Source of the DNA: an uncultured Clostridia bacterium
Lineage (GTDB): Bacteria; Bacillota; Clostridia; Christensenellales; Borkfalkiaceae
Direction: 5' to 3'
Assembly: GCA_904419075.1 (NCBI GenBank)
Contig: CAJFQM010000009.1
Span: 1-64,000 of the forward strand
Length of the DNA stretch: 64,000 nt
The notes below the pieces were generated by a model. The model was not told the DNA's origin, ran no database searches, and worked only from the letters and a program-made list of their open reading frames with translations. The first letter of the stretch is position 1, and each line of letters begins with the position of its first letter. This document shows positions 1 to 15,310 of the stretch, in pieces. Made by a program: the position numbers and the translations under genes.

Positions 1-1
1 C

Positions 2-253
2 GATCCCGAAAACGAATGGATGCTGCAAAACGCCATTCAGGAGCTGACGAAGTCCAAAACGGTCATTATGATCGCGCACAGATTAAAGACCGTGCGCCAC
101 GCAGACAAAATTATCGTACTCGACGGCGGCAGAATCGTCGAAGAGGGCACGCACAAAGAGCTTTTGGCAAAACAGGGCAAGTATGCCGAATTTATCGCCA
201 TGCGCGAGAAGTCTGTGGGCTGGAAACTCGGCGGAGCATCGCAAAATATATAG
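2..253 (+). CDS. ABC transporter ATP-binding protein, C-terminal fragment cut by window edge
   Basis: Only the last 83 residues are present, because the frame runs in open from the window start. It begins with the D-loop region (DPENE), then an H-loop in 'VIMIAHRLKTV', then 'KIIVLDGGRIVEEGTHKELL', the classical end of an exporter-type ABC nucleotide-binding domain (MsbA/MdlB-like permease-ATPase fusions). A methionine at base 20 is internal, not a start. The gene is plus strand and ends 17 bases before a strong terminator hairpin, so it closes the transcription unit entering from the left. The substrate cannot be told from this part. Confidence 0.9.
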   Translation, partial: DPENEWMLQNAIQELTKSKTVIMIAHRLKTVRHADKIIVLDGGRIVEEGTHKELLAKQGKYAEFIAMREKSVGWKLGGASQNI

Positions 254-270
254 CCGGAAACGGATTCTGG

Positions 271-312
271 AAAATAATAAATGCGTGGCAAGTACCGCGC
301 ATTTATTATTTT
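271..312. terminator. Long bidirectional hairpin terminator
   Basis: A perfect 15-base inverted repeat (271-285 with 298-312), extended by three further pairs to an 18-pair stem with a CAAGTA loop. The arms begin AAAATAATAAATGCG and end in a T-rich run, so it can stop the ABC gene on the plus strand and minus-strand transcripts coming from the small RNA region. Confidence 0.85.
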
Positions 313-329
313 GATGGCGACGATAAACA

Positions 330-465
330 GAAAAAAGAACGATACATAAAGTACCGTTCTTAGCAAGGTTTACGGAGTAATCCGACAACCGCCGTTCTTA
401 AAGGTCGAGTAATTTAAGGTGTCTTTGCCGTTTGTACACCCCTCGTAAAGGAACGTCAACCATTA
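330..465 (-). ncRNA. Predicted small structured RNA A (unidentified)
   Basis: A free-standing transcription unit without a convincing reading frame. On the minus strand a consensus promoter (TTGACT, 17 bases, TATAAT) is followed about 135 bases later by a hairpin (335-345 with 351-361, one mismatch) and a run of six T, a textbook intrinsic terminator. Internal complementarity includes CGGA/TCCG and GGTGT/ACACC pairs. It has the same architecture as the next unit. It may be a known ICE-associated structured RNA class that I cannot name from sequence alone. Confidence 0.6.
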
Positions 466-470
466 CAGAT

Positions 471-499
471 ATTATACGGCAAAGGTAGAAAAAAGTCAA
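471..499 (-). promoter_or_regulatory. Sigma-A promoter for small RNA A
   Basis: Read on the minus strand: -35 TTGACT (499-494), spacer of 17, -10 TATAAT (476-471). Transcription would start near base 464. Confidence 0.8.
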
Positions 500-520
500 G
501 GTGAATAAAAGCCAAAAAGT

Positions 521-600
521 AAAAAAGTAACGGGCAACAAAATGTTACCCGTTAACTGCGAATAGACTTCAAATGTCTGGTCGGAATATCCCGACGTCGC
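521..600 (-). ncRNA. Predicted small structured RNA B (unidentified)
   Basis: About 80 bases between a consensus minus-strand promoter and an intrinsic terminator (528-538 pairs with 544-554, one mismatch, then six T at 526-521). The body folds into two further small hairpins, GTCGG/CCGAC and AGAC/GTCT. There is no start codon with a ribosome site. It lies just upstream of RNA A, and the two units have closely similar promoter sequences. Confidence 0.6.
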
Positions 601-606
601 ATTGAT

Positions 607-635
607 ATTATATGGTAAAGCAAAGGAAAAGTCAA
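607..635 (-). promoter_or_regulatory. Sigma-A promoter for small RNA B
   Basis: Minus strand: -35 TTGACT (635-630), 17-base spacer, -10 TATAAT (612-607). The flanking sequence is nearly the same as the RNA A promoter, including the ATC after the -10. Confidence 0.8.
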
Positions 636-716
636 ACGGAAATGAGGGAAAGTCGAATAATTGAAAACGCCGGAATTTTGTTTTCCCCCTTAGCGAATGA
701 TTGCTCGATTCCCGTT

Positions 717-929
717 CTAATCGGTTTTCATTGCTTTGCTGAGTACAGCGTAAATGTCATGGTATGGAATATCGTCCGAGCAGATCCAGATGATGACGGA
801 AAGCTCTTCTATCGTTGCGCCTTCGCTGTTGCGTTGAAAGAAGCGGGTATATTGCCGGATATCTCCGCAGGTGAACCAGTTGTTGCGGATACAGAGTGTG
901 CGAAGTTCGCCGCTGTCTAATCTTTTCAT
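717..929 (-). CDS. Small conserved protein of conjugative-element operons
   Basis: This 70-residue protein starts at an ATG preceded by AAGGAG. It contains 'LCIRNNWFTCGDIRQY' and 'ATIEELSVIIWICSDD', a pattern I associate with short uncharacterised proteins next to methylase-like genes in clostridial integrative elements. It is acidic, without membrane segments or a signal peptide. It is the last gene of the long minus-strand operon, 16 bases after the methylase-like gene. Its function is unknown. The plus-strand frame covering the same bases has no ribosome site and is a shadow. Confidence 0.75.
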   Translation of the reverse strand: MKRLDSGELRTLCIRNNWFTCGDIRQYTRFFQRNSEGATIEELSVIIWICSDDIPYHDIYAVLSKAMKTD

Positions 930-945
930 TGTAAAATCTCCTTTG

Positions 946-1761
946 TCAGTTTAGATTGATGTATTTGCGGAACCGCAGGTATTGGAAAAGGAGCGCAGGC
1001 GTGTACCAAACGCCCCAAAGTTCGCGGGTGAGCGCGTTCTGATGCCGTACAACGGCAGGTACGCCCGCGAGGGAGAGTTGCAGATAGGTCATGTGAACGC
1101 AGCGCTCGTCTATGTCGCCCGCGTCAATGAAACAGTTTCGGGCATAGTTGACACCGCAGGATTGCAGGACGTCCAAAGCGGCGACGAGCATTCCGCCTCC
1201 TCCGCAGCACGGATCGTTGATGGTGATAACGCCGTCGCCCGCCGTTTTTTCTTTTATGAGAGTTTCGTCCATGACGCGCGCCATAAGTTCCGAGATATGG
1301 TACGGAGTAAAAAATTGTCCGGCGTTCTTGTTGCCGAGATTGCATTTCATGAACAACTCGCCGAGATTGTCGTTGAATTTGCCGTTGTCGTAGACGACGG
1401 AGGCGAGCAGAGCGTAAATCTTGCCGAAAATCTCCGCAAGTTTCTTTTGCAGGGCTGGCGTATAGCTTTTGATGATCTGCAAATACCGCTCTTCACGTTT
1501 CTCTTTCTGTGCGAGGTCGACCTGATTGGAAATTGCGATGGCGCCGCACTCGAACAAGTCCGAAACGAATTTGCGTTTATCCACCTGATAGGCGGAGCGT
1601 TCGATGTCTTTTACGATATCGTCAAGTTTCGGGATAGGGTACGGGCAGAGTTTTTTCTGTTCTTCAGGCGGAATGTTGAATGACAGTGCATTTTGCGGAA
1701 TGTCCGTTACCGTTACGTTCGGCGACTTGTCGGTAAAGTCAAACAGAAAAGAAGGCGCCAT
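946..1761 (-). CDS. N-6 adenine DNA methylase-like protein lacking the NPPY motif
   Basis: A 271-residue protein of the HsdM/N6-methylase fold. It has the motif X-like 'GQFFTPYHISELMA' (about residue 145) and the SAM-binding loop 'DPCCGGGGMLVAALDV' (about 182), followed by 'DIDERCVHMTYLQLSLAGV'. The catalytic motif IV (N/D-PP-Y/F), which should follow, is absent. In its place the chain runs through 'GVWYTPALLF' and ends. The family is common in clostridial conjugative elements. It binds SAM by inference, but methylation is doubtful. The ribosome site GGAGG lies inside the end of the preceding gene, one base away, so the two are translationally linked. Confidence 0.85.
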   Translation of the reverse strand: MAPSFLFDFTDKSPNVTVTDIPQNALSFNIPPEEQKKLCPYPIPKLDDIVKDIERSAYQVDKRKFVSDLFECGAIAISNQVDLAQKEKREERYLQIIKSYTPALQKKLAEIFGKIYALLASVVYDNGKFNDNLGELFMKCNLGNKNAGQFFTPYHISELMARVMDETLIKEKTAGDGVITINDPCCGGGGMLVAALDVLQSCGVNYARNCFIDAGDIDERCVHMTYLQLSLAGVPAVVRHQNALTRELWGVWYTPALLFQYLRFRKYINLN

Positions 1762-1762
1762 G

Positions 1763-2710
1763 TCACGCCTCCTTCAACTGTACGATCGCATACGAAACGT
1801 CTTTGAACCGGTTGCCGAGCTTGTCTATATATTCCTGTGCCTGTTTTACCGAGGCAAATTTTAAGGCATAGGCTTCCTCGTGGCAGAAGCGCAGAAAATA
1901 CTTGCCGAGCCGCTTTATGTAAATGCCCTGCGGGAATGCAGGGAAGAATGCTTTGATGCGATAAGGTTTCACATTGTGTTTCGTATCTGCGGAGATAAAT
2001 CGGAATTTACGCGGCAGATATTGCCCGTTGCGTGCGATGGCGTTTCTCGCGTCGGCGGGGCTGTCGAAAACGAGTGCCTGAGCGATGTCTGGGGATAAGG
2101 CGTAGCCGTGTGACGAAAGCTCGGAGAGGTATTTGTCGGCGCCTATGCGGAGAATGACCTTGCCCTCGGGTTCTCTGCGCGCGGCAATACAGAGCGGATC
2201 TCTGCCGTAAAGGGCGAGGCAGATGACGGCATAGCGTGAAACGGGTTTAAGTTCCTCCGCGCGGGCATACGCCATATCCAGCCAGTTTTCAAGCTCTTCG
2301 GTAGTATTGCAGTATTTCCATTCTTCCGTGCGGGATTCGTAAGAGCCTTTTATTCCGACGAGGATATAACAGGTCACGGACTGAACGGGTACGGCTCTGC
2401 GTATCTCTTCGATGGTGAGCGCTTCGCGGATTCCATTCTTTGCCCAGGTGATAAGCCCCTTGTCGTTCACGAACTTTCCGTTGGCATAAAAATGCTCCTG
2501 ATATTCGTTGCCGCAGAAGGTGTTGAGATAGGCGAGATATTCGTCGGGCGTAAATTCAATTTTGTCGTTTGCATATACGCTCCAGTGCCGTTCGCGCACT
2601 TCTCTGCCTCTGACGTATTCGGTGACGTTGTTGTCGCCGTGCAGGGCAAGCGGAATAATGCCGCGAGAAGTTTTGAGGAATTGTTTTCCGTACATGATGG
2701 TGTAACTCAT
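1763..2710 (-). CDS. Conserved hypothetical protein of the element operon
   Basis: 315 residues starting MSYTIMYGKQ at base 2710, chosen because AAAGGAG lies 9 bases upstream. A longer frame to 2785 has no ribosome site. No catalytic motif is recognised. The N-terminal half has 'LPLALHGDNN'-type segments rich in aromatic residues, and the C-terminal half ends in a short basic stretch and 'KQAQEYIDKLGNRF'. No signal peptide or membrane helix. It lies between the small 77-residue gene and the methylase-like gene, all in one operon. The function is unknown. Confidence 0.75.
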   Translation of the reverse strand: MSYTIMYGKQFLKTSRGIIPLALHGDNNVTEYVRGREVRERHWSVYANDKIEFTPDEYLAYLNTFCGNEYQEHFYANGKFVNDKGLITWAKNGIREALTIEEIRRAVPVQSVTCYILVGIKGSYESRTEEWKYCNTTEELENWLDMAYARAEELKPVSRYAVICLALYGRDPLCIAARREPEGKVILRIGADKYLSELSSHGYALSPDIAQALVFDSPADARNAIARNGQYLPRKFRFISADTKHNVKPYRIKAFFPAFPQGIYIKRLGKYFLRFCHEEAYALKFASVKQAQEYIDKLGNRFKDVSYAIVQLKEA

Positions 2711-2777
2711 AAAGATGATCTCCTTTGAAAATAGTAAAAAATCGGCTCGCCGCGGACAGCGGCGAGCCGTATAATTA

Positions 2778-3011
2778 TTAAGCACGGATAAATTCGGAAA
2801 GCGGGCAGCGCTGTCCGAAAAGGCGGATGTAAACGGATTTCGTTCCGTAATGGATTTTGAGCCTGTGGTAGGACTTTTTCCCGTTCCATGCGCCAGCCAC
2901 GAGGTAGACGTAATCGTCTATACCGTATTCGATGTGTTTTACTTCCAGCCCGCCCAGCCCGCTGTAATAAGCGACGGTAGGGCAATCGGTACAGTATTCT
3001 TTCTTCGTCAT
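2778..3011 (-). CDS. Small conserved protein with N-terminal CxxC
   Basis: 77 residues beginning MTKKEYCTDCPTVAYYSGLG, with a CTDC pair that could bind a metal with a partner and 'LEVKHIEYGIDDYVY' in the middle. The start codon overlaps the stop of the previous gene (ATGA), a sign of coupled translation. It resembles short proteins found in clostridial conjugative elements; no function is known to me. Confidence 0.75.
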   Translation of the reverse strand: MTKKEYCTDCPTVAYYSGLGGLEVKHIEYGIDDYVYLVAGAWNGKKSYHRLKIHYGTKSVYIRLFGQRCPLSEFIRA

Positions 3012-3295
3012 TTTGTGACCTCATATGATTTTCCGCAGACCGTAACGCGCGCACCGTCCTGAACGGGGCTGCCTTTGGCGCAGGCGCGTAAGAATATTTT
3101 GTCTTGCGATTCTTCGGCTTTGGGGAAATCTCCGTCAAGGAATTTTCTCTCGTTTCCGACTTCTATTATGTTGAAGCCCTTTTGCACGAGCATGGAACTG
3201 AACTGCCAAATAGCGTCGAACATTCCGTTGCTATCGAGGACGGCGCAGATGTCTTTCTGCGGGTGATATGCAGTGATTCTGAAATAGTTTGCCAT
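3008..3295 (-). CDS. Small hypothetical protein
   Basis: 95 residues from the second ATG (MANYFRITAY), which has the better spacing (9 bases) to AAGGAG; the first ATG, two codons earlier, is too close. The N-terminal 'YFRITAYHPQKDICAVLDSNGMF' is typical of short accessory proteins in conjugative elements. It is soluble. Its stop overlaps the start of the following 77-residue gene. Confidence 0.75.
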   Translation of the reverse strand: MANYFRITAYHPQKDICAVLDSNGMFDAIWQFSSMLVQKGFNIIEVGNERKFLDGDFPKAEESQDKIFLRACAKGSPVQDGARVTVCGKSYEVTK

Positions 3296-3310
3296 AAGCA
3301 TTTTCTCCTT

Positions 3311-4639
3311 TTAAGCGGCAAGTTTTTTGATAGTGCGGTTGGCATACGGCAGCCAGACTTTGTTGACGTAATGCAAAACGTCTTCGCTCGGCTTGTGGTC
3401 GTGTTCTCCGTAGCATTGCAGAACTTTGTGGTTGCGGAGAGAATATTCGAGCGTCACGAACGGAGTATCCGGCTGCTCTTTTGTACGGACAAAGAAGATG
3501 AGCGATTCTTCGCGGACAAAACGCTGGTCATAGTTCATACGTCCCACGCAGTGGTCTAACATTTCTCCTTCGCGGATAAGGTCGGCGGGAGAGCGGGCGA
3601 TGATACAGATAAATGCGCTGCGTTTATCGTGTTCAAGAGGCATATATTTCTTTGCTATGACGGCAAATTTTTTATACAGTTCCCGTCTTGCCTTTCTGTC
3701 TGCTTCCGCCTGAGCCGTGGCGTATTGGTCGATACGCATATCGTGCCAGTATTGGAAATCGTGGGGGAAACGGTTCTTCGGCAGCGACATATCTAAACCG
3801 AGGTAGTTGCAGGCTTTGAGATAATCGAGATAGGAGTGCGGGTTTGTTTTCTGTGCGGCAACGTATTCGAAGAAAGTAAACTGTTCCTTTTCCGTCGCAA
3901 ACAATTCCCGAACGGGGGCGAGAGCGTTATCGTGCTGCAGGCGCAGCCGTGCTTCCCAAAAGGCTTGGTGGGTATCAAGCGGTTTCCCCGTCTTATATGC
4001 CTGCATGATGACGCCGATGTAGTAAGAGTTCACCTGCAATTCGTGTTTATGAGCGAGCAGCCAGCGGCAGAAGTTCTTGTCTTTACCGACGCGCTTTAAG
4101 ACGGTAACACTCATGGCTATTTTCTCAAAACCGAGCTTCATCAGGATTTCGAGTTGCGGATATTGTTCGTAGCGGCGCAGGTATTTCAGGAGATTGACGC
4201 CGGGGAAGAGTTTATAGGCGCTGTATCGGTATTCGGGGAATTTTTCTACGAATTCGGGATTGACGATTTTCGCCCACGGATCGTAATATTTATCGTCTGC
4301 CCAACCGAGTCCCTGTTCAAACCATTTGCGATAGTTTTGCAAGCCTTCTTCGTACCAGCCTATCCGGAATCCGAAACCGACGAAACCGCAGTATTCGATG
4401 TCTTTGACAAAACATTTATCGGAATGTATGCCGTGCCAGGCGACCTGTTTGCAGTACCGCTTTTTGCGGTAGTGTTTTACGGCGACGGTCACTTTCGTAA
4501 GCTCACCCTGTATTTTGGTAAGGTAAGCGTAGAAACGGCATTGACCTTTCGGCGAGGGATTGTATTTGTCGTCAAGCCGTTTAATTTTTTGCAGTATGTA
4601 TTTGTGAATTGCTTTGATTTTTTCTTCTGTGATTTCCAT
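3311..4639 (-). CDS. PcfJ-like protein
   Basis: About 442 residues. The C-terminal third carries the PcfJ hallmark 'GEMLDHCVGRMNYDQRF' followed by 'PFVTLEYS' and 'VLQCYGEHDHKPS'. PcfJ proteins are encoded in the accessory operons of conjugative plasmids such as enterococcal pCF10 and of clostridial ICEs; their molecular role is unclear. The basic, aromatic-rich N-terminus may bind nucleic acid (inference). I prefer the ATG at 4639, preceded by AGGTGAGG; a GTG at 4648 overlaps the upstream stop and cannot be excluded. The gene directly follows the PcfK-like gene, the usual pairing. Confidence 0.88.
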   Translation of the reverse strand: MEITEEKIKAIHKYILQKIKRLDDKYNPSPKGQCRFYAYLTKIQGELTKVTVAVKHYRKKRYCKQVAWHGIHSDKCFVKDIEYCGFVGFGFRIGWYEEGLQNYRKWFEQGLGWADDKYYDPWAKIVNPEFVEKFPEYRYSAYKLFPGVNLLKYLRRYEQYPQLEILMKLGFEKIAMSVTVLKRVGKDKNFCRWLLAHKHELQVNSYYIGVIMQAYKTGKPLDTHQAFWEARLRLQHDNALAPVRELFATEKEQFTFFEYVAAQKTNPHSYLDYLKACNYLGLDMSLPKNRFPHDFQYWHDMRIDQYATAQAEADRKARRELYKKFAVIAKKYMPLEHDKRSAFICIIARSPADLIREGEMLDHCVGRMNYDQRFVREESLIFFVRTKEQPDTPFVTLEYSLRNHKVLQCYGEHDHKPSEDVLHYVNKVWLPYANRTIKKLAA

Positions 4640-4644
4640 GTTCC

Positions 4645-5730
4645 TCACCTCATTTCAATTTGCTCGCCGAGCAGTTCGTCTAAAATTGCGAGAGCCTCGG
4701 GATCGAATGCGGAGATGTCGAACGGAGGTTCGTCATCTGTTTCTTCGTCGAGATTATGCACAACGCCGTCCTCATCGATATAGGTCGTATCGTCCACCCA
4801 GTGCTTTACCGGTTTGTCGGGAGCGGGATCTGTTTGCACGGGAGGAGCCGTTTGCGGTTCGGGGTATTGCCTGACGGGTTGATCGCGCGATTCCGCGACG
4901 GCGATTTTCAAGCCTTTCCCCACGGCTTTGGAAATGTAGTTATCTGCGGCATGGTAGGGGAAGCCGACCATAAGCACGCGCTCGTTCAGTCCGCAGTCCC
5001 TGCTCGTAAGTGTAAGGTCGAGAGGCTCTGCGAGTAGTTTTGCGTTATTTCCGAAAATTTCGTAAAAATCCCCGACGCGGTAGGCAAGAATATGGTCGGG
5101 ATATTTGTTTTGCAACGCCGTATAGCTCTGCCAAAGGGGAGAGCCGGCGGGTTCGGGTGCAGGATTCTTTTCTGCTTCGCGTTCCTCTTCTGCAAGTTCC
5201 GCAAGGATCTCCTGCTTTTCTTCTTCGGTCGGCTCCTCGTTTTCGTCATCAGGGATATCCTTCGGTTCCGAGATCGAGGGGACGGCAGGAGTTTTTTGCT
5301 CTTTAGCCGGAACGTCGAGCATATCGAAGAGGGACATCTGCGGCTTGGGTTTGGGTGCGGGAGGAGGTGTTGCGGAAACGGCAGGCTTTGTCTTTGCAAC
5401 GGACTTCGGCGGCTTGTATTCCGTGCCGTCCTCGTTATAGAGCGTGCCCTCGATGGAATCCTCCTCGAAAAAGTGTACCGCCCAGCCGAAAACAACGGAC
5501 TGTCCGACGCATGCGGAGTTTGCGCCCTTTTCGGAAATTTTCCTGGCTTCTCCAGTCGCGTAAGATATAAAACCGTCCAGCGTCTTTTTGTTGATGAGCG
5601 TCTTGCCGTCTTTTTGAATGCGGACGCCGTTATTGATTTTATCGGCGAGGATTTCGGAAGCGTTCTCTTCGAGGTACGCTTTGACGAGTTCCTGCGCTTC
5701 GTTTTTTGTTTTTAGATTTAATTTCGGCAT
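4645..5730 (-). CDS. PcfK / AcrIIA9-family protein fused to a MutS domain I-like segment
   Basis: 361 residues in three parts. Residues about 1-110 match the PcfK-like family ('KTLINKKTLDGFISYA', 'SVVFGWAVHFFEEDSIEGTL'), which includes the Cas9 inhibitor AcrIIA9. Residues 111-195 are a proline- and glutamate-rich linker containing 'MSLFDML'. Residues about 197-280 resemble the N-terminal mismatch-recognition domain of MutS ('ILAYRVGDFYEIFG', 'LDLTLTSRD', 'MVGFPYHAADNYISK'), which carries a Phe-x-Glu-like element here as Phe-Tyr-Glu. The tail is acidic. A good ribosome site (AAGGAG) precedes the ATG. Inhibition of Cas9 is possible but not shown. Confidence 0.85.
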   Translation of the reverse strand: MPKLNLKTKNEAQELVKAYLEENASEILADKINNGVRIQKDGKTLINKKTLDGFISYATGEARKISEKGANSACVGQSVVFGWAVHFFEEDSIEGTLYNEDGTEYKPPKSVAKTKPAVSATPPPAPKPKPQMSLFDMLDVPAKEQKTPAVPSISEPKDIPDDENEEPTEEEKQEILAELAEEEREAEKNPAPEPAGSPLWQSYTALQNKYPDHILAYRVGDFYEIFGNNAKLLAEPLDLTLTSRDCGLNERVLMVGFPYHAADNYISKAVGKGLKIAVAESRDQPVRQYPEPQTAPPVQTDPAPDKPVKHWVDDTTYIDEDGVVHNLDEETDDEPPFDISAFDPEALAILDELLGEQIEMR

Positions 5731-5780
5731 ATGATTTCTCCTTGTAAGATTTTAGGATAAAAAGAAAGAGAGGGGGCGTC

Positions 5781-6026
5781 CTAAAAAGGACACTCCCGCC
5801 AGATACCGCGTAAGACTTCTTTTCTCGTGATAGGGAGAATGAGCCATGTCGGTTTATTAAGTTGTCGGTTCGTTTCCCGCTCTCGCGGAGGGTAACGGCT
5901 GTAAAATTGTTTCATGTCTACGGCCTTTTTATAGCCATGGACGATGAAATACCGCACGATCGTTTTGGAACGATGTTCCCTATAACAGACTTTGTAGCCG
6001 TATGGATTATGCAGGTCGGGTTTCAT
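5781..6026 (-). CDS. Small basic hypothetical protein
   Basis: 81 residues from the ATG at 6026 (MKPDLHNPYGYKVCYREHRS). A TTG nine codons upstream is an alternative start. The ribosome site is weak (GGAA). It is rich in Arg, Lys and Tyr, with 'YFIVHGYKKAVDMKQFYSRYPP' and no membrane helix. It overlaps the end of the upstream gene by 20 bases. Function unknown. Confidence 0.6.
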   Translation of the reverse strand: MKPDLHNPYGYKVCYREHRSKTIVRYFIVHGYKKAVDMKQFYSRYPPRERETNRQLNKPTWLILPITRKEVLRGIWRECPF

Positions 6027-6564
6027 GTGTTTTTCCGTAGATAAAATCTGCAAAGTGCGGCAGGGCTGAAAAGAAATTGCTTTTCATAATGCTGCGGTGC
6101 AGCGCCCGGTTGTGTGCAAAGCAATGCCTGTCAGCGTATTCTGCTCCTTTGTCAGTCAGGCGTTTAAGTTCATAGAGGTCATGTCCGTCGTGGTGATAGA
6201 CCTCTATGTAAAAATGTCCGTTTTGTTCGTAAATCTTTAGCGTGTCGAGATGTTGAATGAAAGAGCGGAAGTCGTCCCAGTCTGTTATAAAGTTCCCGCC
6301 CTCGCAGGGGCCGTTCCATCTGCCGCAGGTTCCCGTTATGAGGAATGTGTGTTTTTTGAGCAGGCGTTTGAACGCGTCGGAGAAATATTTCCATTCCGCC
6401 TCGTTCTGTAAAGAGATCTCATCCCAGACCATATCGGCGGGAACGTCGTTGATACTTGTCCAGTCCTGGCTTTCGCAGAAAGATTCGTACACGGCTTGTT
6501 CCGCTTCGTCGTATTTGGAGTAGTCGTCCGTGTTGTCGAAAAAGATGATGTCCGTGTTTTTCAT
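6007..6564 (-). CDS. Hypothetical acidic protein of the element operon
   Basis: 185 residues from MKNTDIIFFDNTDDYS at 6564, two bases after the upstream stop and with GAGGAC as ribosome site. The longer frame would run into the upstream gene. Features include 'HTFLITGTCGRWNGPCEGGNFI' (described here in part), 'DGHDLYELKRLTDKG' and no signal peptide. It looks like a soluble DNA-mimic-sized accessory protein, but that is only an impression; no family is recognised with certainty. Confidence 0.7.
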   Translation of the reverse strand: MKNTDIIFFDNTDDYSKYDEAEQAVYESFCESQDWTSINDVPADMVWDEISLQNEAEWKYFSDAFKRLLKKHTFLITGTCGRWNGPCEGGNFITDWDDFRSFIQHLDTLKIYEQNGHFYIEVYHHDGHDLYELKRLTDKGAEYADRHCFAHNRALHRSIMKSNFFSALPHFADFIYGKTHETRPA

Positions 6565-6565
6565 A

Positions 6566-7006
6566 TCAGCAGTCCTCGCAGTGTTTGAGATAATCCCTTT
6601 CGGCTTTTTGCAAACCGCGCAGAAGCCGTTTGTCCGCATTGATTTCTTCGACGGTAAGCCCTAGCGCGTTGAACGTATCCTCATAGTCGTAAGTAATGCA
6701 GTATTCATGGTCGGCAAGTTCGGCAAGAAACATCTGATAAATATACCCGTTGCCGGTCTTGTCTGCGGCGATAGCCGCTTTGCGTTCCTGCTCGTGCCTG
6801 TCGAGCATCTCGTGAAAAGCGGCGTGATCGCACTTGCGGATATAGCAGCCAAAGCCTATGGAATAGATCTTGTCCGTATCGTTTACGGTCATGCCCCATT
6901 GGTGCATCATATCGGCAAACTGTTCCTTGCTGTAACACGCGCCGACGGGAAAGGCGTTCATTTCTTTCTGCTGTCTGTTTTTCAGTTCGCGGTATAAATT
7001 TTTCAT
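6566..7006 (-). CDS. Conserved hypothetical protein of conjugative elements
   Basis: 146 residues from MKNLYRELKNRQQKEMNAFP, with AAGGAG nine bases upstream of the ATG at 7006. Characteristic stretches are 'DTDKIYSIGFGCYIRK', 'GYIYQMFLAELADHEYCI' and 'LGLTVEEINADKRLLRGL', a widely distributed uncharacterised family in clostridial mobile elements. Soluble, mostly helical by composition. The function is not known to me. Confidence 0.8.
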   Translation of the reverse strand: MKNLYRELKNRQQKEMNAFPVGACYSKEQFADMMHQWGMTVNDTDKIYSIGFGCYIRKCDHAAFHEMLDRHEQERKAAIAADKTGNGYIYQMFLAELADHEYCITYDYEDTFNALGLTVEEINADKRLLRGLQKAERDYLKHCEDC

Positions 7007-7020
7007 GTTCGTATCTCCTT

Positions 7021-7164
7021 TCAATAAATTTCTTCCTGCTCTAAAAAGTCCATAAAGTCCTCATCGAGCAGTTGCATGCCGTAGTAGTTTGTAAAAAGCT
7101 GGGCGACGGTCTCGCCGTCCAGTTTTATGAGCATATCCCAGATTTTTATCTGCATTTCCGACAT
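7021..7164 (-). CDS. Micro-protein of 47 residues
   Basis: A short frame, MSEMQIKIWDMLIKLDGE to ...EQEEIY, with an ideal AAGGAGG ribosome site in front of its ATG. The start overlaps the end of the upstream 71-residue gene by 19 bases and the stop lies 14 bases before the next gene, so it fits the dense minus-strand operon. 'LDGETVAQLFTNYYG' and an acidic tail suggest a small folded helical protein. Function unknown. Confidence 0.65.
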   Translation of the reverse strand: MSEMQIKIWDMLIKLDGETVAQLFTNYYGMQLLDEDFMDFLEQEEIY

Positions 7165-7361
7165 ATTCTTGCCTCCTTGCCGTACAGATCGACGAGCCTG
7201 ATGCGTTTGTGTTCCAGCCCGAATTCTTTGCGGAATTTTTGCAACGCTTCGTGGAACGAATAGAACATATAGCTACGGCAGGTATAATTTCCGTCCGAAT
7301 CGCTGTATCGGAATACAAGCCCTGCGTATCTGTTGTAGTAATAATAGATAGTTCTGCTCAT
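7146..7361 (-). CDS. Small tyrosine-rich hypothetical protein
   Basis: 71 residues, MSRTIYYYYNRYAGLVFRYS to ...CRKCR. The ATG overlaps the stop of the preceding gene (ATGA) and has GGAGG upstream. 'YMFYSFHEALQKFRKEFGL' is probably an amphipathic helix. The last residues are encoded by the ribosome site of the next micro-gene. An alternative frame across the same bases (7061-7318) lacks a ribosome site and was not called. Confidence 0.65.
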   Translation of the reverse strand: MSRTIYYYYNRYAGLVFRYSDSDGNYTCRSYMFYSFHEALQKFRKEFGLEHKRIRLVDLYGKEARICRKCR

Positions 7362-7555
7362 TCGTTTATCCTCCCGTACACGTCGTCTGCGTAGTAAGTG
7401 CAGTTGAAGGGGTTAAAAATAGCGGAGCATTTCACTCCGCGATAGTCCACGATATATATTGTCTGTCTGCCGTCCTCTTTTATATCGAGGACGGTTATTT
7501 CGTCTATTGCTCCGTCCAGGGAATGGATGTGTGCCTGCGTCTTAAACGGTGTCAT
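7358..7555 (-). CDS. Small hypothetical protein
   Basis: 65 residues, beginning MTPFKTQAHIHSLDGA, with 'ITVLDIKEDGRQTIYIVDYRG' suggesting a small beta-rich fold. ATGA overlaps join it to both the gene before and the gene after, and GGAGG lies upstream. No family recognised. Confidence 0.65.
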   Translation of the reverse strand: MTPFKTQAHIHSLDGAIDEITVLDIKEDGRQTIYIVDYRGVKCSAIFNPFNCTYYADDVYGRINE

Positions 7556-7800
7556 TTTCGGTATTCCTCCAAATATTTTTCGTATTGCGTGTCAGCTTTC
7601 AGTACCTGCATGACTTCGGACATGATTTGTTCTTTTGTTTTGCCGATACAAGAGAGTATAAGCAGGTTAGTATTTGCGCCGAACAGTCTGCGGAACGCGT
7701 AATCGAGGATAAGGGAAATGTCTTTATCCTCGTGTTCGCCCGTCCTGTTGATGGCAAATATCGCTGTCAGGATTGCTTTTACTTCTTTGGTGTTTTTCAT
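7552..7800 (-). CDS. Small hypothetical protein
   Basis: 82 residues from MKNTKEVKAILTAIFAINRT at base 7800; the longer frame to 7848 lies inside the upstream gene. GGAGG is about 12 bases before the ATG, a long but usable spacing. Helical, with 'LILDYAFRRLFGAN' and 'EQIMSEVMQVL'. Stop and start overlap with the following gene. Confidence 0.65.
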   Translation of the reverse strand: MKNTKEVKAILTAIFAINRTGEHEDKDISLILDYAFRRLFGANTNLLILSCIGKTKEQIMSEVMQVLKADTQYEKYLEEYRK

Positions 7801-7805
7801 GGCAG

Positions 7806-8081
7806 CTACAAAACCTCCTTGATTTCGATGGAGATATAAGTGTAACATTCGGTTTCGTCGGCATCGCTACGGCGGTCGAGGAAGTCGAGTTCTATTTTAT
7901 CGTCTTTCGGCACGCCGTTTTCCCATTTAAGTTCGCCTACCCAGGAATTGTCGGGGTTCTTTTCGCTTTCGATAAGTTCTTTGAATTTGGCATATGCTTT
8001 TTCATAGGTACTATACACGGTCAATTCGACATCGCTGCTGTCTTCGGTAGACCAGTCCAGTTTGACGAGATATACTTTCAT
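7806..8081 (-). CDS. Small protein sharing a domain with the zinc-ribbon protein upstream
   Basis: 91 residues beginning MKVYLVKLDWSTEDSSDVEL, with AGGAGG before the ATG. The whole protein resembles the C-terminal part of the protein at 8649-9416: both have Y-L-x-x-LDW-x-TED, then a 'YEKAYAKF' / 'PEKAFELF' helix, then 'NSWVGE' / 'FSWVGE'. The two are therefore paralogous domains in one operon, flanking ardA. The role is unknown. Confidence 0.75.
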   Translation of the reverse strand: MKVYLVKLDWSTEDSSDVELTVYSTYEKAYAKFKELIESEKNPDNSWVGELKWENGVPKDDKIELDFLDRRSDADETECYTYISIEIKEVL

Positions 8082-8091
8082 AAAAAGCCTC

Positions 8092-8637
8092 CTATAAAAT
8101 TTCGATGATGCCGCCCGAATATTCTTCGGCGCAGCTCAAGCCTGTCGATCTTCCGTACTCCTCAAAGTCAAAGTAGTCGATAAGGTCGTCGTCCAGATGC
8201 CTGTCGCTGTTTTCAAACAGTTCTCTGCCGTAATCTTCCCAGTCATAGTTTTCATAGACGTAGATGTCGTCATTCCAGTTATTTCCGAGCTTTTCCACCC
8301 GTTCGGCAAATTCATGGAAAGAACGTACTTCCAGATAGGCGCAGAGGACGGTATACAGATACTCGCTATGCAAGACGCCGCTCTCTTTGAGCGTTTCAAA
8401 GAGTTCTTTCGGGCTTATGTAATCCCAGTTTTCGCAGTTAGAGGGGAGACCGTCTATATCCTGCACGAACAGTTCTTTGTCGGTATCGTCAAGGCGAAAA
8501 TCCTGTGTTTTGAGCGCCGCTGCTATTTCGTCCCAGTTTTTGTAATTTGCAAGATTGAGCCATTCGGAGCCGAGCGCGCGTTCGTTGCAGGTACTGTACG
8601 AGCCCCACGAGCCGATCACGATTTTGATTGTGTTCAT
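8092..8637 (-). CDS. ardA: ArdA antirestriction protein
   Basis: 181 acidic residues with the ArdA pattern: 'GSWGSYSTCNERALGS' near the N-terminus, 'DDTDKELFVQDIDGLPSN', 'ELFETLKESGVL', 'CAYLEVRSF' and 'YENYDWEDYGRELFE'. ArdA is an elongated DNA mimic that occupies type I restriction enzymes and protects incoming conjugative DNA. The length fits the Tn916 ORF18/ArdA family (about 165-185). A strong AGGAGG site precedes the ATG. It sits in the middle of the element operon, consistent with early expression after transfer. Confidence 0.95.
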   Translation of the reverse strand: MNTIKIVIGSWGSYSTCNERALGSEWLNLANYKNWDEIAAALKTQDFRLDDTDKELFVQDIDGLPSNCENWDYISPKELFETLKESGVLHSEYLYTVLCAYLEVRSFHEFAERVEKLGNNWNDDIYVYENYDWEDYGRELFENSDRHLDDDLIDYFDFEEYGRSTGLSCAEEYSGGIIEIL

Positions 8638-8648
8638 ATACTTTCCTC

Positions 8649-9416
8649 CTATTGCAACAGTACCCTGCGCAGGTAAATATCGGAAAATCGACCTGTATCA
8701 TCGTCCGAAACGCACCAACGGCTGGCTGTGGCGAACGTGTCGTCTTCCAGAGCATCGAGAATATAGCCTTCTTTTACGCCGCCGTCTTCGGCGAATACTT
8801 CTTCGCCTACCCAGGAAAATTGCGGATTCATCTCTTGGTCTATTCGTTTATGAAAAAGTTCGAATGCTTTTTCGGGTGTGGCGCAGATATCGAACTCGAA
8901 GCCTTTGTCGTCTTCGGTAGCCCAGTCGAGCGTTATGAGATAGACATATTTCTTGTTGGAGACGGGAGAGGCGGGAAGATTATTGAGCGCGTCCCCGTAG
9001 AACTCGTTGAGTTCATTTACCGTTTCTTCCGAAAGGGGGTATGCCGCAGTTTCGCATAACCCGTATAGTTTCACGGCGCTCTCATCTGTGTCGATATAGA
9101 TGCTTGGCCCGCATGCGGAAACGAGCAGCTTTATGCTGACAAATTGTCCGTATTTGTCTAATAGATATTCGATATCGAGTATGCTTTCGCTCATGAGATA
9201 ATCCGAAAGCGAGAGTTGTTGCAGGTCTTTCATCGGGAACGATTTTTTGCAATACGGGCACGCGTAAGTATTGCCCGCAGCATCGTAGCCGGAGAAATTC
9301 CAGATAAATTCTTCTCCGCAGGCAGGGCAGCGGTACATTTCGCCCTTGCGATATGCTTCCACGGTTTTGGCAATGTACTCGCATTGTTCCAGATTCTTCT
9401 TAAGTTTGTTTTCCAT
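8649..9416 (-). CDS. Zinc-ribbon protein with C-terminal repeat domain
   Basis: 255 residues from MENKLKKNLEQCEYIAKTVE at 9416, with AGGAG ten bases upstream; a longer frame has no site. Residues about 27-65 hold two CxxC pairs (CPACGEEF and CPYCKKSF), a probable zinc ribbon. The last 100 residues match the small protein at 7806-8081. The middle part has no known motif. It might read nucleic acid or proteins through the ribbon, but the function is not known. Confidence 0.8.
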   Translation of the reverse strand: MENKLKKNLEQCEYIAKTVEAYRKGEMYRCPACGEEFIWNFSGYDAAGNTYACPYCKKSFPMKDLQQLSLSDYLMSESILDIEYLLDKYGQFVSIKLLVSACGPSIYIDTDESAVKLYGLCETAAYPLSEETVNELNEFYGDALNNLPASPVSNKKYVYLITLDWATEDDKGFEFDICATPEKAFELFHKRIDQEMNPQFSWVGEEVFAEDGGVKEGYILDALEDDTFATASRWCVSDDDTGRFSDIYLRRVLLQ

Positions 9417-9429
9417 TGATAGCGTTCTC

Positions 9430-9756
9430 CTAAAATTTATATTTCTCGATTTTATTGAGGTTGAGCCGATAAAGGGGATAGACGACAAAACCGGAGGGCA
9501 TCGTCACGCCTGTGGGAGTGATAAAGCCCTGTTCTTCCAGAAACAGAAGCAAATCTCTGTCTGCGTTGTTCACGTCGATAAACGCAAGCCCTTTGCCGAG
9601 CTGCATATCCAGATTGACTGTTAAATCGCAGTACGGTTCGATACAATCGTTCTCTTTGCAGTTGATCCCGACGTAGGTATTGCCGGTGGTGGAGTAAGTG
9701 CTTGTCGTGAAAGTAAACTCTAAATTTTTGTGGATCGGTGTTTTGAAAGTTTTCAT
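9430..9756 (-). CDS. Small hypothetical protein, DUF4313-like
   Basis: 108 residues beginning MKTFKTPIHKNLEFTFTTST. The segment 'YCDLTVNLDMQLGKGLAFID' followed by 'VNNADRDLLLFLEEQGFI' resembles the DUF4313 family of mobile-element proteins (from memory, unverified). AAGGAG lies upstream. Beta-rich and soluble. It is operon-embedded between the zinc-ribbon protein and another small protein. Confidence 0.72.
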   Translation of the reverse strand: MKTFKTPIHKNLEFTFTTSTYSTTGNTYVGINCKENDCIEPYCDLTVNLDMQLGKGLAFIDVNNADRDLLLFLEEQGFITPTGVTMPSGFVVYPLYRLNLNKIEKYKF

Positions 9757-9758
9757 GT

Positions 9759-9998
9759 TCAGTTGTTCTCCTTATTTTCAAAATCGTCGATGTGGATATG
9801 TTCTTGTCCCGCAACGCCGTACTCGAAATACAGTCCGTTTTCATCGGTGAACAGGTCATAATCGGTTACGGTAATTTTTCCGCATTTGGTGACGGCAACC
9901 GTGATTTTGTTGTTATCGGTGTTCAGTTCGACAATGTTGAAGATAACATCATCTTCTCCGTCAAAGTGCTGAAATTCTTTGAGATAAAATTTGTTCAT
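9759..9998 (-). CDS. Small acidic hypothetical protein
   Basis: 79 residues, MNKFYLKEFQHFDGEDDVIF to ...ENKENN, with AAGGAG before the ATG. It is strongly acidic and predicted beta-rich, of the size and charge seen in small antirestriction-type proteins, but no motif supports that role. It stops three bases before the next gene begins. Confidence 0.7.
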   Translation of the reverse strand: MNKFYLKEFQHFDGEDDVIFNIVELNTDNNKITVAVTKCGKITVTDYDLFTDENGLYFEYGVAGQEHIHIDDFENKENN

Positions 9999-10021
9999 AT
10001 GAGTTTCTCCTTTCAGATTTT

Positions 10022-10336
10022 TTAGTCGGTAATTTTGTACCAGATGGAATAGTTGAATTCAACTTCGCGCTTTTCATAGCCCGTGCTGTCGCCGCTCGAT
10101 GTTTTCTTTTCGAATTCGATTTCGCGGATCTCGTAATGTGCGCCGCGATATTCGTTGTCTCTGCCGGATATGGGGTGGCAGTTTTTGACGCAATCCTCAA
10201 ATACCCGTATATACGGCTTTCCGCTTTTGCTTATGCAGGCGGTGATGAGATCGGTATCGGTAATATATCCGACACCTGTCGTCTTGGTATTTTCATACCT
10301 TCCTTGCTTTGTGACAGCAAACACTACTTTTTTCAT
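10022..10336 (-). CDS. Small hypothetical protein behind an attenuator-like leader
   Basis: 104 residues, MKKVVFAVTKQGRYENTKTT to ...NYSIWYKITD. It has 'GVGYITDTDLITACISKSGKPYIRVFEDC' as its core (quoted in part) and no recognisable enzyme motif. GGAGA lies 12 bases before the ATG. Its 5' region is a ~290-base leader with a terminator that is repeated upstream of the gene at 11041. Its ATG overlaps the stop of the leader reading frame (ATGA). Confidence 0.72.
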   Translation of the reverse strand: MKKVVFAVTKQGRYENTKTTGVGYITDTDLITACISKSGKPYIRVFEDCVKNCHPISGRDNEYRGAHYEIREIEFEKKTSSGDSTGYEKREVEFNYSIWYKITD

Positions 10337-10641
10337 TTTGGTTTACATCTCCGAATTTTTATTGCCGGTTTCGGCGAAGGCGGAGAAGCATAGGACGGTG
10401 ACGGGCGAGGCTCTTTCTGAATATAGTCTGCGGAAGTCAACGGAAAAAGGGAAAATTGGTGCATAGGCGTTGTTTGAACTGCGGATAAAAAAGTCCGGGC
10501 AAGGTTTCCTTGCCCGGCTGCGGATAGAGGATATGCAAGTTTTAAGCGGCAATTTACCCGCCGTTTACTTCCGCGAGGAACTATGCTACGATAGCCAAAC
10601 CGAAAACGCAAAAATTCGGAAAGGGGGAAACTGTCGTTCAT
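10333..10641 (-). CDS. Leader reading frame crossing an internal terminator (putative)
   Basis: A 102-codon frame with an excellent ribosome site (GGAGGTACTATC before the ATG). The N-terminus contains 'FLRFRFGYRSIVPRGSKR', and the same peptide pattern (FFRFR-GE-SIVPRGSKR) is encoded in the second copy of this leader near 11560-11612. The frame passes through the terminator hairpin at 10487-10517 and ends in an ATGA overlap with the next gene. Translation could therefore block termination and couple to the downstream start. The C-terminal half is of low complexity, so the product itself may not matter. Confidence 0.4.
   Translation of the reverse strand: MNDSFPLSEFLRFRFGYRSIVPRGSKRRVNCRLKLAYPLSAAGQGNLARTFLSAVQTTPMHQFSLFPLTSADYIQKEPRPSPSYASPPSPKPAIKIRRCKPK
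10337..10625 (-). repeat. Repeated leader, copy 1
   Basis: This stretch and 11323-11612 are diverged direct copies. Shared blocks, read on the plus strand, are CGGAAGTCAACGG, a hairpin built on GCAAGG/CCTTGCCCGG, and TTTACTTCCGCGAGGAACTA followed by TGCTAC. Each copy sits immediately upstream of a minus-strand gene. Confidence 0.75.
10487..10517 (-). terminator. Intrinsic terminator inside leader copy 1
   Basis: CCGGGCAAGG (10495-10504) pairs perfectly with CCTTGCCCGG (10508-10517) around a 3-base loop. On the minus strand it is followed by six T. It stands about 150 bases before the start of the gene at 10336, so it must be overcome for that gene to be read from upstream. Confidence 0.8.
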
Positions 10642-10745
10642 GATAGTACCTCCGTTTTTTGACAACGGCGTTCGACCGTGTTGTGTGTGTTCCATAAATA
10701 GACTTCCCGTTATTCTGTGTATCCGTAAAGTACGGCGTTCATAAG

Positions 10746-10877
10746 CTATTGCTTATTATAAATGGGATCTGCCGGGAAATTACTGCCGCATGATGTATCG
10801 AAACAGAAATATTTCGCGCGCCTGTTTTCTTCCAGCGATTGCAGCAGCTTTGCCGCGCAATTGCCTTGTTCAACCAT
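10746..10877 (-). CDS. Micro-protein of 43 residues
   Basis: A short frame beginning MVEQGNCAAKLLQSLEENRR and ending ...DPIYNKQ. Its ATG overlaps the stop of the preceding 48-residue gene by one base (TGATG), the mark of termination-reinitiation. It contains 'AKYFCFDTSCGSNFP', with two cysteines. It is the last gene before leader copy 1. Function unknown. Confidence 0.55.
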   Translation of the reverse strand: MVEQGNCAAKLLQSLEENRRAKYFCFDTSCGSNFPADPIYNKQ

Positions 10878-11023
10878 CAGCACAGGATATGTTCTTTGAG
10901 TTCTTCATAGATCAGAACTCGGTATTCGCCCCAGTTTCGCACAAAGATTTTGCGTGCCATATCGTCTAAAGTCATGTTATCATTATTTACCCAGCGTTTG
11001 AGGGTGCGGAAAATATTGCTCAT
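10877..11023 (-). CDS. Micro-protein of 48 residues
   Basis: Begins MSNIFRTLKRWVNNDNMTLD and ends ...YEELKEHILC, preceded by GAGGAGG. Helical; 'MTLDDMARKIFVRNWGEY' looks like a compact conserved core. It lies 17 bases after the gene at 11041-11322 and overlaps the next micro-gene by one base. No family known to me. Confidence 0.6.
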   Translation of the reverse strand: MSNIFRTLKRWVNNDNMTLDDMARKIFVRNWGEYRVLIYEELKEHILC

Positions 11024-11040
11024 CTTTTGCTGTCCTCCTC

Positions 11041-11322
11041 TCAGTTCGTAACGGTTTTGCCGACGGGATATGTCGCTTTATATTCATCGAACGATAAAAA
11101 GTCGCAAGAAGCATAGCGACCGGCGAAATGTTTTGCATAGATTTTGAGGTCGTAAGCGACCATGTTTGTTTGCTTGAGAAACAAATGAAACATAAGTCCG
11201 TCATCTCGTGTGATTGTGTCGACGACGCAGAGAGGGGTGGCGAGGGACGGATCGTGCTTGTGTTTTGAGTTGCAGACGACAAGCCACTGTTTGTAATCTT
11301 TCATGGAAGTGTATTTTTTCAT
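11041..11322 (-). CDS. Small hypothetical protein, first gene of the element operon
   Basis: 93 residues, MKKYTSMKDYKQWLVVCNSK to ...PVGKTVTN, with GGAGG upstream. It is basic and soluble, with 'LMFHLFLKQTNMVAYDLKIY'. It is the most upstream gene of the minus-strand operon in this window and follows leader copy 2 directly. No function is recognised. Confidence 0.7.
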   Translation of the reverse strand: MKKYTSMKDYKQWLVVCNSKHKHDPSLATPLCVVDTITRDDGLMFHLFLKQTNMVAYDLKIYAKHFAGRYASCDFLSFDEYKATYPVGKTVTN

Positions 11323-11612
11323 TTTGGAAACCTCCGAAAATTTTCTATTTGCCGTTTTCCGGCAGGGCGAAAAGGAGCATGGGACGGTGAGAAGCGGGCT
11401 ATTTGAAAGTACAGGGTGCGGAAGTCAACGGTACAAAGGAAAATCCTGCGTCCGAATTAAAATATTTAATATAGCAAAAAAGCGCCGAGCAAGGAAAACC
11501 TTGCCCGGCGCTGCTGATATTTGGATTATGAAGTTTTATGCCAGATTTTCCGACCGTTTACTTCCGCGAGGAACTATGCTACACTCGCCCCAACGGAAAC
11601 GGAAAAATTTAA
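11323..11612 (-). repeat. Repeated leader, copy 2
   Basis: Diverged copy of 10337-10625 with the same order of elements: peptide-like block, terminator, CGGAAGTCAACGG block, gene start. The peptide block ends in a stop before the terminator, unlike copy 1, and lacks an ATG in frame, so this copy may be altered. Confidence 0.72.
11475..11512 (-). terminator. Intrinsic terminator inside leader copy 2
   Basis: A 14-pair stem (11481-11494 with 11499-11512, one mismatch) with an AAAA loop, followed on the minus strand by six T. About 153 bases separate it from the gene start at 11322, the same distance as in copy 1. Confidence 0.8.
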
Positions 11613-11635
11613 TTGTTCAATTGGGTTGCCTTTTC

Positions 11636-11645
11636 GGGGGGGGGG
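11636..11645. repeat. Homopolymer tract of ten G
   Basis: Ten consecutive G lie between a TTGGGT and a TACAGT that could act as -35 and -10 of the lipoprotein promoter (19-base spacer), and next to the end of leader copy 2. Such tracts change length by slippage; they are also common sites of sequencing error. Confidence 0.6.
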
Positions 11646-11691
11646 TACAGTGATACAATATATAGTAGTACTTTAAGGAGGTACACTATAT

Positions 11692-12750: not shown

Positions 12751-12796
12751 CGGGATTTCGCCGAAATAAAGACGGAAAATTTGACGGGACTCCGCA

Positions 12797-12825
12797 GAGA
12801 AAACATTTTCGCGGAAAATTTTCTC
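12797..12825. terminator. Weak hairpin after the lipoprotein gene
   Basis: GAGAAA/TTTCTC and ATTTTC/GAAAAT arms around a GCG loop with a small bulge. It is AT-rich and has no long T run, so termination strength is uncertain. Confidence 0.35.
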
Positions 12826-12844
12826 AAAAGCCTTATAAAAACGG

Positions 12845-12873
12845 TTGCAAAACGTACAAAATAATGGTATAAT
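12845..12873 (+). promoter_or_regulatory. Sigma-A promoter of the rimP-nusA-infB operon
   Basis: TTGCAA (12845-12850), a 17-base spacer ending TGG, and TATAAT (12868-12873). It leaves a leader of about 90 bases before rimP. Confidence 0.85.
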
Positions 12874-12900
12874 GAGGATACTTAATAATCAGTAATGAGT

Positions 12901-12926
12901 ATTGAGAGTGGCTTGCCACTCTCAAT
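12901..12926 (+). promoter_or_regulatory. Perfect hairpin in the nusA operon leader
   Basis: ATTGAGAGTGGC pairs over 12 bases with GCCACTCTCAAT around a TT loop. It is not followed by a T run, so it is not an intrinsic terminator. It lies between promoter and rimP and could affect mRNA stability or pausing. Confidence 0.6.
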
Positions 12927-12966
12927 ATTGCTATGTAAGGGCATTTGCGCGCGGAACGGAGGGCGT

Positions 12967-13437: not shown

Positions 13438-13482
13438 GGACGGAAAGTAAAATCAGGGAATTCAATTAGGAGAGCGAATACA

Positions 13483-15306: not shown

Positions 15307-15310
15307 ACCT

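Follow-up and report, generated by a model that had tools for sequence, protein, structure and literature searches.

MutS domain I has already been described outside MutS, in the polyvalent proteins, which the paper describing them calls the only instance to date (PMC5512222). In E. coli MutS, Phe36 and Glu38 touch the mispaired base; the F36A substitution impairs specific binding and E38Q impairs discrimination (PMC3848065; PMC12292046). MSH6 has the Phe-x-Glu as well (PMC3848065). MutS also carries a clamp-binding motif (PMC8744996), and the consensus of beta-clamp ligands is QL(S/D)LF, with much variability allowed (PMC9690074). A PcfK domain is carried by AcrIIA9 (PMC6739104), which came from human gut libraries and inhibits SpyCas9 (PMC10328345), and acrIIA7-10 came from a functional selection (PMC6739867).

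The stretch of DNA analysed here (the window, 64,000 nucleotides from an uncultured Clostridia bacterium) encodes a 361-residue protein in which a PcfK-family domain is joined to a MutS domain I. The open reading frame begins with ATG and contains no internal stops. Between the two domains lies the sequence QMSLFD, which was absent from the first-pass annotation of this DNA and which we consider the best clue to function. The features of the protein and of its partner gene are as follows.

4645-5730, minus strand: PcfK - clamp-type motif - MutS_I fusion protein, 361 aa (ORF, Pfam, AlphaFold2, Foldseek)
5401-5730, minus strand: PcfK-family (PF14058) globular domain, residues 1-110 (Pfam, AlphaFold2, profile-profile match)
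5341-5400, minus strand: Pro/Lys-rich linker, residues 111-130, low pLDDT (sequence, AlphaFold2)
5323-5340, minus strand: QMSLFD, residues 131-136, a motif of the beta-sliding-clamp-binding type (consensus QL(S/D)LF, PMC9690074; family conservation)
5146-5310, minus strand: acidic linker, residues 141-195, in which residues 169-188 are predicted to form a helix (sequence, AlphaFold2)
4873-5142, minus strand: MutS domain I, residues 197-286 (Pfam, phmmer, Foldseek)
5059-5067, minus strand: Phe222-Tyr-Glu224, aligned with Phe36/Glu38 of E. coli MutS (gap-free alignment)
4648-4707, minus strand: C-terminal segment, residues 342-361, with a predicted helix at 344-357 (AlphaFold2, comparison of relatives)
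3311-4648, minus strand: PcfJ (PF14284, E 1.2e-28), partner gene, beginning at the stop codon of PcfK or immediately after it (Pfam)

The C-terminal part of the protein matches Pfam MutS_I at residues 198-285 (E 8.4e-24, 84.4 bits against a cut-off of 20.6), and its predicted structure matches MutS domain I in the PDB by Foldseek with a best E of 1.5e-8 (7oto_A, rmsd 1.3 over 85 columns). When PDB sequences were searched with phmmer, all 16 matches below E 1e-12 were bacterial MutS proteins aligned inside residues 192-286, and the 12 weaker matches were MSH3, MSH6 and NF-Y subunits. The protein scores 91.9 bits with the NCBIfam model of MutS, below its cut-off of 480. Pfam finds no connector, core, lever/clamp or ATPase domain of MutS in the 361 residues, MutS_I and PcfK being the only domains reported. 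The first-pass annotation had described this part as a segment like MutS domain I without the ATPase, and both points agree with these results.

The same annotation had likened the N-terminal part to the PcfK family that includes AcrIIA9. The Pfam match to PcfK (PF14058, residues 44-94, E 6.6e-6) is borderline, with 26.7 bits marginally below the cut-off of 27, and reaches 32.4 bits, above the cut-off, once adjacent stretches of the frame are counted. In hhalign, a profile of 97 PcfK domains, the window's included, matches a profile of 11 canonical proteins at 99.5% (E 2.6e-23, 85 columns). We therefore accept the kinship with canonical PcfK on the basis of the Pfam score and the profile comparison. 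Folded alone with AlphaFold2, the PcfK domain reaches a pLDDT of 92.8 and a pTM of 0.83, and its model has no Foldseek match at E <= 0.001 among PDB structures. A kinship of the domain with the NF-Y histone fold came up in a profile search of PDB sequences with E values of 0.4-0.6 only, and we do not take it as evidence.

The AlphaFold2 model of the whole fusion, built on 94 aligned sequences, has pLDDT values of at least 90 in each ten-residue block of residues 1-110 and 201-290, and values of 38-69 across the linker blocks 111-170. The mean pLDDT is 61 at residues 131-140, so that QMSLF (131-135) sits in a flexible region. The linker had been called proline-rich, which is right for residues ~106-130, while the remainder (140-195) is acidic. 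Structure prediction recovers the MutS-I fold, and the profile comparison leaves the kinship with the AcrIIA9 family in place.

Of the 60 other genomes searched, four (G001, G013, G031 and G051) encode relatives with this layout. From a scan of genome contigs the best 80 of 145 relatives were kept, and a scan of viral contigs gave 38. MutS_I is present in 68 of the 153 PcfK ORFs collected and absent from 85; several of these loci look like one record reached twice, so the counts are not independent, and the non-redundant tests below correct for this. The fusion is therefore no artefact of this assembly. The acidic linker and ends resembling the C-terminal segment (342-361) are common to many PcfK proteins with and without MutS_I, and MutS_I acts like a cassette within them. 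L131, which seems to have lost the domain, retains no more than its first residues, and in L091 PcfK and MutS_I lie on separate overlapping ORFs. Given the 85 ORFs without MutS_I and the loss in L131, MutS_I is dispensable to the PcfK-PcfJ core. The fusion is under purifying selection, with a dN/dS of 0.134 overall and 0.086 in MutS_I relative to the nearest relative (L066). In a mostly unresolved tree of MutS_I (107 rows, 96 columns), a single clade of the 36 fusion rows is not rejected (p-AU 0.977) and 34 of the 36 lie on a starred branch; the fused domains are compatible with one origin on this weakly resolved tree.

PcfJ lies behind PcfK in 67 of the 80 genome loci, at a distance of 40 bases or less in 65 and of 93 and 500 bases in the others. 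Twelve of the 13 loci without PcfJ have fewer than 410 bases of contig left, the exception being L099. In viral loci, where presence was scored, PcfJ was found in 33 of 34. In the window's order, PcfK-PcfJ is located within a compact chromosomal gene row (window ~400-11650), which also contains genes for an ArdA antirestriction protein and a short N6-methyltransferase-like protein (window 8092-8637 and 946-1761, respectively, minus strand). The relatives we read are in compact chromosomal islands, often downstream of tRNA-Ser, or beside phage replication genes. A tRNA on the same strand, ~2-4 kb upstream of PcfK, is present in 20 of the 48 loci scanned (tRNA-Ser in 17); in two further loci a tRNA lies elsewhere, and the other 26 are without one. 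The window has no tRNA gene in positions 1-16000. In the fetched flanks of 20 loci, the tRNA 3' end is not repeated beyond chance, as an attachment repeat would require. A hairpin-like GGAAC...GTTCC stretch follows the CCA end of tRNA-Ser in L069, L071 and L085, and variants of it follow other tRNAs. These three loci belong to CALWRH01, which has four PcfK-PcfJ copies (L069, L071, L082 and L085) at different sites, with ~5 kb alike between copies. A search for tyrosine integrases gave 10 matches across three carrier genomes. Near the upstream end of the window's gene row, two similar stretches (~10480-10620 and ~11480-11620) can be seen by eye, each with a CCTTGCCCGGC repeat and TTTACTTCCGCGAGGAACTATGCTAC; Rfam gives no RNA family at E <= 0.1 in window positions 1-14000.

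The ten flanking proteins of five loci include no transfer gene; they are a glutamine synthetase, a sigma factor, GerA, two glycosidases, a serine recombinase (L101), DUF4238 and three unmatched proteins. PcfK-PcfJ adjoins genes for a DnaA-like protein and a DNA replication protein in phage Freya_1, and helicase and nuclease genes in phage BS-TP3. On a Bacteroides plasmid, it is near SSB, toprim, TraM-recognition and ArdC genes. Neither the fusion nor PcfJ matches anti-phage defence models.

The linker motif is conserved across the PcfK family. For the motif counts, eight of the 153 PcfK ORFs were dropped as they had no anchor, thinning of the other 145 at 70% identity left 69, and removal of one truncated row gave 68. 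The pattern Q-x-[STNDPA]-[LMIVF]-F occurs after the PcfK domain in 57 of these 68 non-redundant proteins, compared with 0.59 expected from shuffled linkers, and in 30 of the 31 non-redundant fusions. With W or L also allowed at the last position, it occurs in 59 of 68, compared with 1.77 expected. Without thinning, 135 of the 153 ORFs have the motif (66 of the 68 fusions, 69 of the 85 ORFs without MutS_I). As a control, we took 521 other ORFs of at least 150 aa from the same 80 genome loci, longest first; the motif is found anywhere in 24 of them (49 with W or L also allowed), and since they were picked mechanically, not all need be genes. Across 60 aligned fusions, the motif positions are Q in 58, S/T in 57, L/M/I/F in 60, F in 60 and D/E in 59, and the mean majority fraction over 94 aligned rows is 0.73 in the motif versus 0.29 in the remaining linker. 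We note a bias in these figures: the motif was part of the alignment from which the scans and the HMM were derived, though it was not in the scan patterns, and the 80 loci are those most similar to the query. The QxxxF form is missing from 11 of the 68 non-redundant proteins. The viral PcfK proteins L155, L158, L161 and L165-L168 end in ELFS, ELFT, DLFS or DFFS, not in QxxxF; these ends are possibly a variant motif or a site for another partner.

A set of canonical PcfK proteins from plasmids and phages shares this bias less. It was found with L036 as the query and comprises 13 proteins picked by hand from 58 matching records (35 plasmids and 23 phages), among them two near-identical pairs (L272/L277 and L280/L281). 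Q-x-[ST]-[LM]-F is present in 10 of the 13 fetched proteins, and [MEA]-P-[ST]-L-F in the remaining three. In nine of the 10, the motif is at the C-terminus or at most four residues from it, and in the tenth (L272) it is ahead of a fused PcfJ. L036 itself ends in QPNLFDNL, and L037 ends in PNLFD, without the Q. The tenth case is a Phocaeicola plasmid ORF (L272:2501-4156) with PcfK and PcfJ in one frame, annotated as 'Cas9 inhibitor AcrIIA9 family protein'.

Similar motifs are found in host and viral replication and repair proteins. DnaE of the host genome reads AQISLFGD, at a position that we take to be the clamp site of E. coli DnaE; a control search for PolC of the host gave no match above the cut-off. 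Such a motif is present within ~60 residues of the C-terminus in 11 of the 15 MutS proteins of the viral-contig scan, as QMSLFDTVK in three (L197-L199) and as QPDLF, QADLF and similar forms in others, and it is missing in four, two of which are truncated. L195, a MutS from a gut 'phage' record, carries QMSLFDTVKD, and the MutS proteins bearing QMSLFD look clostridial. Among nine MutS proteins of the window's order, QxxxF is missing in seven, namely those of the window's own genome and four congeners (L180, L285, L286, L287 and L291), G055 and G058, and is present in G051 (QMSMF) and G046 (QASLF). Clamp docking of MutS may therefore not be universal in these hosts. As judged from its sequence, QMSLFD fits a bacterial beta-clamp-binding motif and may well bind the clamp; against this reading, short motifs can serve other partners.

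The residues that read mismatches in MutS are retained in the fusion. GDFxE is present in 68 of 69 fusion-type domains, the exception being L119 with L in place of F, and in all 25 MutS proteins from the window's own and related genomes. Residues C255, C279, Q281 and P285 are invariant in those 25 MutS proteins and variable in the fusions. A search for orphan MutS_I domains in viral contigs gave 75 loci, with 46 complete non-MutS ORFs below 700 aa, of which 34 are non-redundant. GDF[YF]E is found in 28 of the 34; of the other six, three retain F-x-E beside a changed neighbour and three do not. Six of the 34 have the clamp-type motif in a loose form (0.3 expected) and five in a strict form (0.02 expected), near the N-terminus in L230 and L239 and behind MutS_I in L218, L231 and L238. 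The other 28 have no such motif, and neither do the MutS_I proteins L181 and L192. A helicase on a Chroococcidiopsis plasmid has MutS_I at 999-1091 and QLSLFD at 1130. The pairing of MutS_I with a clamp-type motif seems to have arisen more than once, yet it is no rule. We also observed a viral ORF (L208:985-2145) in which a ParB N-terminal domain and an HTH domain are followed by MutS_I.

On balance, and by a slight inclination, we think that the protein is probably a clamp-docked adaptor of a mobile-element replisome, in which PcfK works with PcfJ and carries an ATPase-less reader of mismatches or DNA distortion. The PcfK part would act together with PcfJ, the product of the adjacent gene, and QMSLFD would dock on the host beta sliding clamp (DnaN), in its cleft for peptide ligands; DnaN is the proposed target because the motif equals or resembles those of MutS and host DnaE. 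MutS_I, freed of the ATPase, core, lever and clamp domains, could then read the DNA encircled by the ring, with Phe222 and Glu224 wedging at mispairs or other weak spots of the duplex, and the host clamp would stand in for the parts of MutS that embrace DNA. PcfK-PcfJ would thereby reach those parts of the element's DNA that are heteroduplex or newly replicated, and the bound protein would tend to keep MutS away. Having no ATPase and no connector, it cannot signal like MutS and should not start mismatch repair, and damping of mismatch repair is likelier than repair. The protein looks more like a stripped-down MutS on the replication machinery than a Cas9 blocker. A wider proposal is tentative, and we incline against it: members of the PcfK/AcrIIA9 family might be sliding-clamp ligands in general, and mobile elements might several times have built ATPase-less MutS_I sensors on a host-clamp tether (in PcfK-PcfJ, in viral proteins of ~140-250 aa and in the cyanobacterial plasmid helicase), steering or silencing mismatch recognition on their own DNA.

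Other explanations share parts of this evidence. The protein may be a decoy against mismatch repair, which fills the clamp clefts and the mispairs and so prevents host MutS-MutL from rejecting or repairing the element's heteroduplexes. It has both features by which MutS locates mismatches, a domain I with Phe-x-Glu and a clamp-type motif, and no other MutS domain. Isolated MutS domain I may bind DNA weakly, however, MutS_I is missing from other PcfK-PcfJ units (85 of the 153 ORFs), and competition for the clamp may be irrelevant in a genome whose own MutS has no QxxxF; we regard a decoy as rather unlikely. The adaptor reading takes the clamp as a docking site, whereas QxxxF could instead bind a non-clamp partner such as PcfJ or another protein of the element, with MutS_I as a plain DNA-binding tag. 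The motif and PcfJ are indeed both common across the PcfK family, but the motif matches the clamp consensus, equals or resembles those of MutS and DnaE, and recurs in MutS_I proteins without PcfK, and we give a non-clamp partner little chance. Protection of DNA at entry is about equally improbable in our estimate. In this case, incoming DNA would be bound by MutS_I where its duplex is imperfect or where short stretches are single-stranded, a role suggested for the MutS-I of polyvalent proteins (PMC5512222), and conjugative elements provide the precedent. ArdA in the window's gene row, and the ArdC and SSB genes near PcfK on one plasmid, point the same way. Such protection leaves the motif unexplained, and many PcfK carriers are viral contigs or phages. 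The first-pass annotation had also placed the protein where single-stranded DNA enters; the ten neighbours of five loci, which include no transfer gene, and the contexts of islands and phage replication do not bear this out, the contrary case being the one Bacteroides plasmid with ArdC, SSB and TraM-recognition genes.

An inhibitor of Cas9 with a DNA-binding add-on, the nuclease-blocking role envisaged in the first-pass annotation, is in our estimate very improbable. AcrIIA9 belongs to the same Pfam family (PMC6739104; PMC10328345), and one canonical PcfK-PcfJ ORF is annotated as an inhibitor of this kind, but the conserved clamp-type motif points elsewhere. Cas9_REC was found in none of 25 genomes of the same genus, the window's own included and several of them incomplete, in three of 41 relatives, and in 58 of 396 genomes of the order. 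PcfK is present in 45 of 396 genomes of the order, and the two occur together in eight, compared with 6.6 expected (Fisher p 0.51), a figure that takes both 396-genome draws as the same genomes. These counts lend no support to a Cas9-blocking role in this genus; an inhibitor aimed at the Cas9 of other hosts is compatible with them. Overall, both domain assignments of the earlier annotation stand and its functional part finds no support, apart from contact with DNA or mispairs, which is plausible because the Phe-x-Glu is kept.

In the open-access literature, we found no PcfK-MutS_I fusion, no clamp motif in PcfK, no joint mention of PcfJ or PcfK with the clamp, and none of MutS-I with clamp and bacteriophage; none of the matches listed for AcrIIA9 with clamp terms combined the two. 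If our preferred reading, an adaptor docked on the clamp, is correct, the sliding clamp would become a testable site of action for the widespread PcfK-PcfJ pair and the AcrIIA9 family, and the question would arise whether Cas9 inhibition is the main role of the family. Mismatch reading would then be separable from the MutS ATPase and run from the host clamp. In this way mobile DNA might escape mismatch repair, a limiter of interspecies recombination, or turn it to its own use.

The comparison with known systems is as follows. The N-terminal domain, the PcfJ partner and the QxxxF motif are shared with the PcfK family (PF14058), including AcrIIA9, and the window's protein belongs to a divergent subfamily, set apart by MutS_I, by a long acidic extension and by an insert at ~residues 36-50. 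Like the polyvalent proteins, it has MutS domain I outside MutS, in mobile elements of Firmicutes/Bacteroidetes, but the MutS-I of those proteins co-occurs with ArdC-N in ~80% (PMC5512222), whereas here it is on a 361-aa PcfK protein with a clamp-type motif. Polyvalent proteins unite several conflict-related domains on a single chain encoded by a mobile element; for the window's protein, the Pfam result consists of two domains, to which the motif is added, with no ArdC-N or metallopeptidase domain, and the main text of the polyvalent-protein paper has 0 occurrences of PcfK, PcfJ or clamp (PMC5512222). The fold of domain I, the Phe-x-Glu and the QMSLFD found at the C-terminus of some MutS proteins are shared with bacterial MutS; the fusion differs from MutS in having no connector, core, lever/clamp or ATPase, and its motif is ahead of domain I instead of C-terminal. 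In eukaryotic MSH6, an N-terminal PCNA-binding box is followed by domain I. The window's protein resembles MSH6 in having a flexible, putatively ring-binding peptide before a domain I with Phe-x-Glu, a likeness that implies no descent, and differs from it in that MSH6 is a full MutS homolog with an ATPase.
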